Both the position numbers and the translations under genes were made by a program. Shown piece after piece: positions 53,968-54,141 of a stretch of DNA of 64,000 nucleotides. The stretch spans positions 200,902,978 to 200,966,977 of the forward strand of contig CP136066.1 of the NCBI GenBank assembly GCA_032622095.1. The letters are read 5' to 3'. Source of the DNA: Siphonodentalium dalli (lineage: Eukaryota > Mollusca > Scaphopoda > Gadilida > Siphonodentaliidae). The notes beneath the pieces were generated by a model that worked only from the letters and a program-made list of their open reading frames with translations, was not told the origin of the DNA and searched no databases. Numbering within the stretch: the stretch's first letter is position 1; each line of letters starts with the position of its first letter.

Positions 53968-54085
53968 GCATGTGCTCCTTGCATTATGTTCCTGGATGAA
54001 ATCGATGCCATAACTCCAAAGAGAGAAACAGCATCGAAGGATATGGAAAGAAGAATAGTGTCCCAGTTGCTCACATGCATGGACG
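53968..54085 (+). CDS. NVL: NVL exon e9 (D1 Walker B); possible extension to 54127
   Basis: The acceptor is acaatttcag and the first donor is gtaggg at 54086. It reads [20 protein letters not shown], then [19 protein letters not shown], ending in phase 1 (G completed by AT of e10). IMFLDEID is the Walker B motif with its catalytic Glu. The last 28 coding bases plus the donor are tandemly duplicated (42-bp units at 54058 and 54100), so a second identical donor lies at 54128. Its use would add [14 protein letters not shown] in frame. A TIR element ends 26 bp before the exon. Confidence 0.96.
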
Positions 54086-54141
54086 GTAGGGTGATTCTAG
54101 TGTCCCAGTTACTCACATGCATGGACGGTAGGGTGATTCTA
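54058..54141 (+). repeat. 42-bp tandem duplication of an exon/donor junction
   Basis: Two 42-bp units, 54058-54099 and 54100-54141, differ at one base (ttgctc versus ttactc). Each carries the codons for VSQLLTCMD and the donor G|gtaggg. Because 42 is a multiple of three, both donors leave e9 in the same phase. Confidence 0.95.

Follow-up and report, generated by a model that had tools for sequence, protein, structure and literature searches.

When the end of an exon is duplicated together with its splice donor, which donor is used, and does the protein then exist in two lengths? The question is raised by NVL, a ribosome-assembly gene, in the 64,000-nucleotide stretch of Siphonodentalium dalli DNA analysed here (the window). 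An initial annotation placed a 42-bp tandem duplication of exon end and donor at 54058-54141. We find the same array, although that register is two bases out: the unit is present twice head to tail, at 54056-54097 (copy 1) and 54098-54139 (copy 2), with 41 of 42 bases identical.

The duplicated donor

Each unit consists of the last 30 nt of an NVL exon and the first 12 nt of the following intron, donor included (all NVL features given by window position are on the + strand). At a shift of 42, this 41/42 is the highest match within 2 kb, whereas 300 mononucleotide shuffles of the 2-kb surroundings give at most 26/42, so the repeat is not a product of chance. Directly after copy 2 stand three further unit bases (TAG, 54140-54142), a third partial unit. 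TAG is thereby found at 54056, 54098 and 54140, a 3-bp microhomology common to the breakpoints, and slippage or a template switch at this microhomology may have copied the 30 exon and 12 intron bases.

As the initial annotation had noted, the twin donors have the same sequence and phase. Both read ACG/GTAGGG in phase 1, with cuts after 54085 (donor 1, 54086-54091) and 54127 (donor 2, 54128-54133), and around the two cuts the sequence is the same over 16 bases before and 15 after. Following the acceptor TTTCAG (53962-53967), the exon spans 53968-54085 (118 nt, Walker B onward) if donor 1 is used, and 53968-54127 (160 nt) if donor 2 is used. Either donor joins the next exon, which carries sensor 1 (55702-55843; acceptor CAG at 55699-55701, donor ACG/GTAAGT), at 55702 as G/AT (Asp). 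Copy 2 is thus intronic with donor 1 and supplies 14 extra codons with donor 2.

The sole difference between the copies, 54069 G versus 54111 A, changes TTG to TTA, and both codons are Leu. The same silent mismatch had been read as a sign that the duplication is recent. A recent origin is plausible, but one difference in 42 is a weak basis for it, and the silent nature of the change says little, because 17 of the 81 possible single changes in 27 of the coding bases are silent.

Gain of a new intron within the unit was considered and rejected: every AG in the unit lies at most 42 nt from donor 1, and such a spacing is too short for an intron. Two other repeats lie in the same intron. Just past the duplication is an inverted repeat (54298-54364; 32 nt, 3-nt loop, 84% complementary), and a 35-bp array (55547-55675) ends 26 bases short of the following NVL exon, the acceptor of which it does not straddle.

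Consequences for the NVL protein

The assignment to NVL holds. The exon peptide has human NVL (9bji) as its best PDB match and contains the D1 motifs of an NVL/Rix7 AAA ATPase, and the translation of the short form is continuous with the neighbouring exons and matches NVL. The window and the following 20 kb contain the exons of D1 and of a portion of D2 in the correct order, and the frame is open through the NVL exons examined. Searches of the 2.23-Gb assembly with DNA and with protein (E <= 0.001) found one NVL locus among the best candidates scored, and no retrocopy among these that would reveal the splice used.

Translation and alignments agree with the earlier claim that use of donor 2 would insert 14 residues between Walker B and sensor 1 of D1. 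Against human NVL D1, the donor-1 product aligns with a one-residue gap and 134.5 bits, and the donor-2 product with a 14-residue gap and 113.8 bits. The +14 form would not trigger mRNA decay, because the length of the unit is divisible by 3, it contains no stop and the extra site is intact.

Donor 2 might be the dominant donor, with the +14 form as the main NVL protein, tolerated by D1. Intron-proximal donors can be favoured, and SF2 is reportedly an activator of proximal 5' splice sites, which would favour donor 2; moreover, the insertion would fall between a helix and a strand, not in a catalytic motif. The core signals themselves favour neither donor, because the two are identical over 31 bases. 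We consider dominance of donor 2 distinctly unlikely. In five listed alignments to solved relatives, the segment that leads from helix to strand between the Walker B and sensor 1 motifs shows only small gaps, varying by one or two residues, which would make 14 extra residues unusual. For yeast Rix7, the available portion of PMC6355894 reports that mutating sensor 1 of D1 severely impairs growth. Given this near-fixed length and the severity of the Rix7 mutation, an insertion just before the sensor 1 strand is unlikely to be neutral for the protein.

A second array in NVL

NVL carries another array, about 9.2 kb past the end of the window, in which an acceptor and exon start are present as 39 tandem 66-bp copies (C6:200976200-200978773; L005 9223 to L006 1796). 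Each unit joins the final 30 bases of the intron, which include a branch-like CTAAT motif and CAG, to the 36 bases that open the D2 exon beginning YVGESE. The frame stays open over 877 codons, starting at the first acceptor and running through the whole exon. Three of the 39 copies depart from the consensus, by a single base apiece. ESEW (Trp) is encoded by the 38 extra copies, and ESER (Arg), as in human NVL, by the exon-joined copy alone. These features fit a single working acceptor beside a recently homogenised array, the edge copy of which would have escaped homogenisation. An edge copy that escapes homogenisation has been described for amphioxus arrays in part of PMC3087553. At the array junction, CAGTATGT also contains a donor-like GTATGT that overlaps the acceptor by one base.

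Relation to known repeats and intron gain

In amphioxus, tandem repeats across exon-intron boundaries are called mirages. The available text of PMC3087553 describes them in Adh3 and in the globins BflGb6 and BflGb9, and that of PMC3902484 adds TnC and PGBD5; both report that regular splicing is undisturbed. The NVL donor duplication likewise spans an exon-intron boundary, and as with the splice dinucleotides in extra mirage copies, both of its GTs are intact. Mirages hit either exon boundary; here there are both a donor and an acceptor array in NVL, and sister loci of both kinds. Mirage copy number differs between haplotypes or tissues; the assembly analysed here represents one haplotype. The amphioxus mirages are in other genes of another organism, whereas in the present genome 12 of 318 sampled exon ends are hit and one array has 39 copies. 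On these likenesses, a mirage would be the best reading of what kind of structure the NVL junction duplication is. A literature search, with most subscription papers beyond its reach, recognised no report of junction-spanning arrays outside lancelets. What is new here is the estimate of frequency per exon end, together with the stop-free, in-frame acceptor array of 39 copies, and both are of more interest than the 42-bp case.

Gao and Lynch are said to have treated intron gain by tandem duplication in 2009. In the Rogers model, as cited in part of PMC3087553, an internal duplication copies splice signals, as in NVL; that process makes a new intron, whereas NVL duplicates an existing junction and no new intron is seen. 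Intron gain of this type, with copied splice signals, appears in the accessible part of a report on potato RdRp (PMC4974935), and the authors of PMC3087553 propose, in the portion available, that mirage copies can become real exons or lead to new introns.

Frequency of junction arrays

To place the NVL case, we sampled 159 exon loci from five families (16 AAA, 43 chaperonin, 27 tRNA synthetase, 63 SNF2 and 10 myosin), leaving NVL out of the resulting 318 exon ends. Arrays were called at a period of 30-130, matches of at least 85% and at least 1.8 copies. Before counting, rows were dropped for PF00004 (4/20), PF00118 (10/53), PF00133 (4/31) and PF00176 (10/73); these rows were single-exon, stop-rich when joined or low-scoring, or they were paralogues of near identity or tandem copies sharing a single place. 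For PF00063, 30 of 85 matches were chosen and 10 fetched.

Arrays straddle 12 of the 318 ends (3.8%, 95% interval 2.2-6.5%), where the ends are those of profile matches rather than of mapped transcripts and some loci are paralogues, with L158 and L160 taken as one event. The straddled loci are L027, L049, L052, L059, L079, L097, L126, L127, L157, L158, L160 and L172. Splice signals are visible within the repeats of these sister loci, of both donor and acceptor kinds, some of them diverged. By this sample, junction arrays are not rare in this genome, and a structure described gene by gene in amphioxus receives a measured frequency.

Some of the loci are of note in themselves. At L126 (C6:220293895-220294494), an SNF2-family exon has its acceptor in a 127-bp array, and the profile search gave three tandem matches there. 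L052 and L059 (C2:20.44 Mb) have donor arrays in two exons of what appears to be a single chaperonin gene, which would be the second gene hit twice. Among the myosin-head matches, a cluster at C4:274.2-275.5 Mb (G000), with 11 places that match the exon of profile positions 376-435, suggests a tandem myosin gene family. One muscle myosin exon of this genome has the scallop entries 2ec6/2os8 as its closest match.

Which copy is spliced

For the extra copies we consider 13 cases; L097, with few exon bases in its array, counts among the 12 straddled ends but is left out here. The exon-joined copy is the first in donor cases and the last in acceptor cases. In 9 of the 13, the dinucleotide of the nearest extra site is dead, the unit length is not divisible by 3 or a stop lies in frame; in the other four (NVL donor, NVL acceptor, L049 and L079) use of that site would give a clean insertion. 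GT or AG has been lost in extra copies at L052 (where further copies still have GT), L127, L158 and L160. Over the 13 loci, GT or AG is kept in 61 of 71 extra copies, 38 of which come from the NVL D2 array. Differences in the extra copies change the amino acid in 21 instances and are silent in 11, against 77:23 expected with no constraint (P 0.15), and so are indistinguishable from neutral. Of 13 independent units, seven have a length divisible by 3, where 4.3 would be expected (P 0.10); this hints weakly at translation of some extra copies.

The nearest extra site in the nine broken cases is probably little used, because the families are conserved and its use would break the product. By analogy, NVL would prefer its exon-joined donor over the extra one, and the sister cases point to donor 1 as most likely the working donor. 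We give a probability of roughly three in four to the NVL duplication being a mirage in which normal mRNA comes from the exon-joined donor and the extra copy is close to neutral. The spliceosome would mainly cut after 54085, giving normal NVL mRNA, and copy 2 would leave with the intron and drift. Rare use of donor 2 would yield a D1 with 14 extra residues, probably working badly. The duplication most likely does no harm, because a normal message still results from use of the original site; a two-copy splice-site duplication may persist in a conserved gene in this way, hidden by exon-joined splicing.

The initial annotation had instead proposed competing use of the two donors, with isoforms with and without the 14 residues. 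Identical, in-phase donors and a stop-free extension are what such alternative splicing would need, but substantial use of both donors is unlikely: comparable arrays are found at the 12 sampled ends, the nearest extra site is mostly dead or frame-breaking, the insertion would lengthen a stretch of near-fixed length, and the mirages in the available text of PMC3087553 and PMC3902484 are reported to splice normally. Competing use thus finds no support in this comparison.

An artefact of assembly or polishing, or an uncommon allele carried by the animal that was sequenced, might also account for the duplication. Errors arise easily in long arrays of near-perfect copies, of which the 39-copy array is an example. 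The two-copy repeat, however, spans 84 bp and is short relative to long reads, its copies differ from one another, and diverged sister cases exist, all of which make this explanation very improbable.

Finally, some junction repeats might act as switches of protein length, with NVL D1 made with or without 14 residues and D2 with 0-38 additional 22-residue units, containing the YVGESE pore-loop motif, by choice among the 39 in-frame acceptors. We regard this as very doubtful. The arrays also provide natural experiments on splice-site choice by the spliceosome where 2 to 39 nearly identical sites compete.

Array coverage around exon ends

Is the exon-intron junction a hotspot for arrays? Random control pieces predict 6.6 straddled ends per 318 (Poisson P 0.036 for at least 12), with a bootstrap range of 0.8-15.2 for the control. 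Random placement of the 18 merged array places within their own loci gives 10.3-11.0 straddling, against 12 observed (P 0.20-0.34); this test has low power because the arrays are long relative to the loci. A junction-specific hotspot is not shown, and an up to twofold excess over the random genome is possible.

On the intron side, array coverage is 2.7-3.8% over 0-240 nt from the exon end, straddling arrays included. This flat course from the exon end into the intron is partly artefactual, because the straddling arrays themselves extend past the junction. Within the exon, coverage falls in 20-nt steps through 3.7, 2.2, 1.4 and 0.6% to 0.1% at 80-100 nt. Arrays deeper in exons are clearly lost, a pattern to be expected where copies across the boundary are tolerated and those further inside exons are purged. 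Long open frames beside some exons hinted at additional arrays, but in the seven loci taken with long flanks the real frames are 74-185 codons, and no array lies within 150 nt of the match.

Overall array coverage is 2.15% in the random control (110 kb), 1.96% in the first 59 exon loci and 1.32% in the window. The window also contains a 26-bp minisatellite of 62 copies with 98% matches (16345-17957) and dispersed blocks of a satellite of about 164 bp (3994-6218, 22941-24244, 27672-28311 and 41638-43429).
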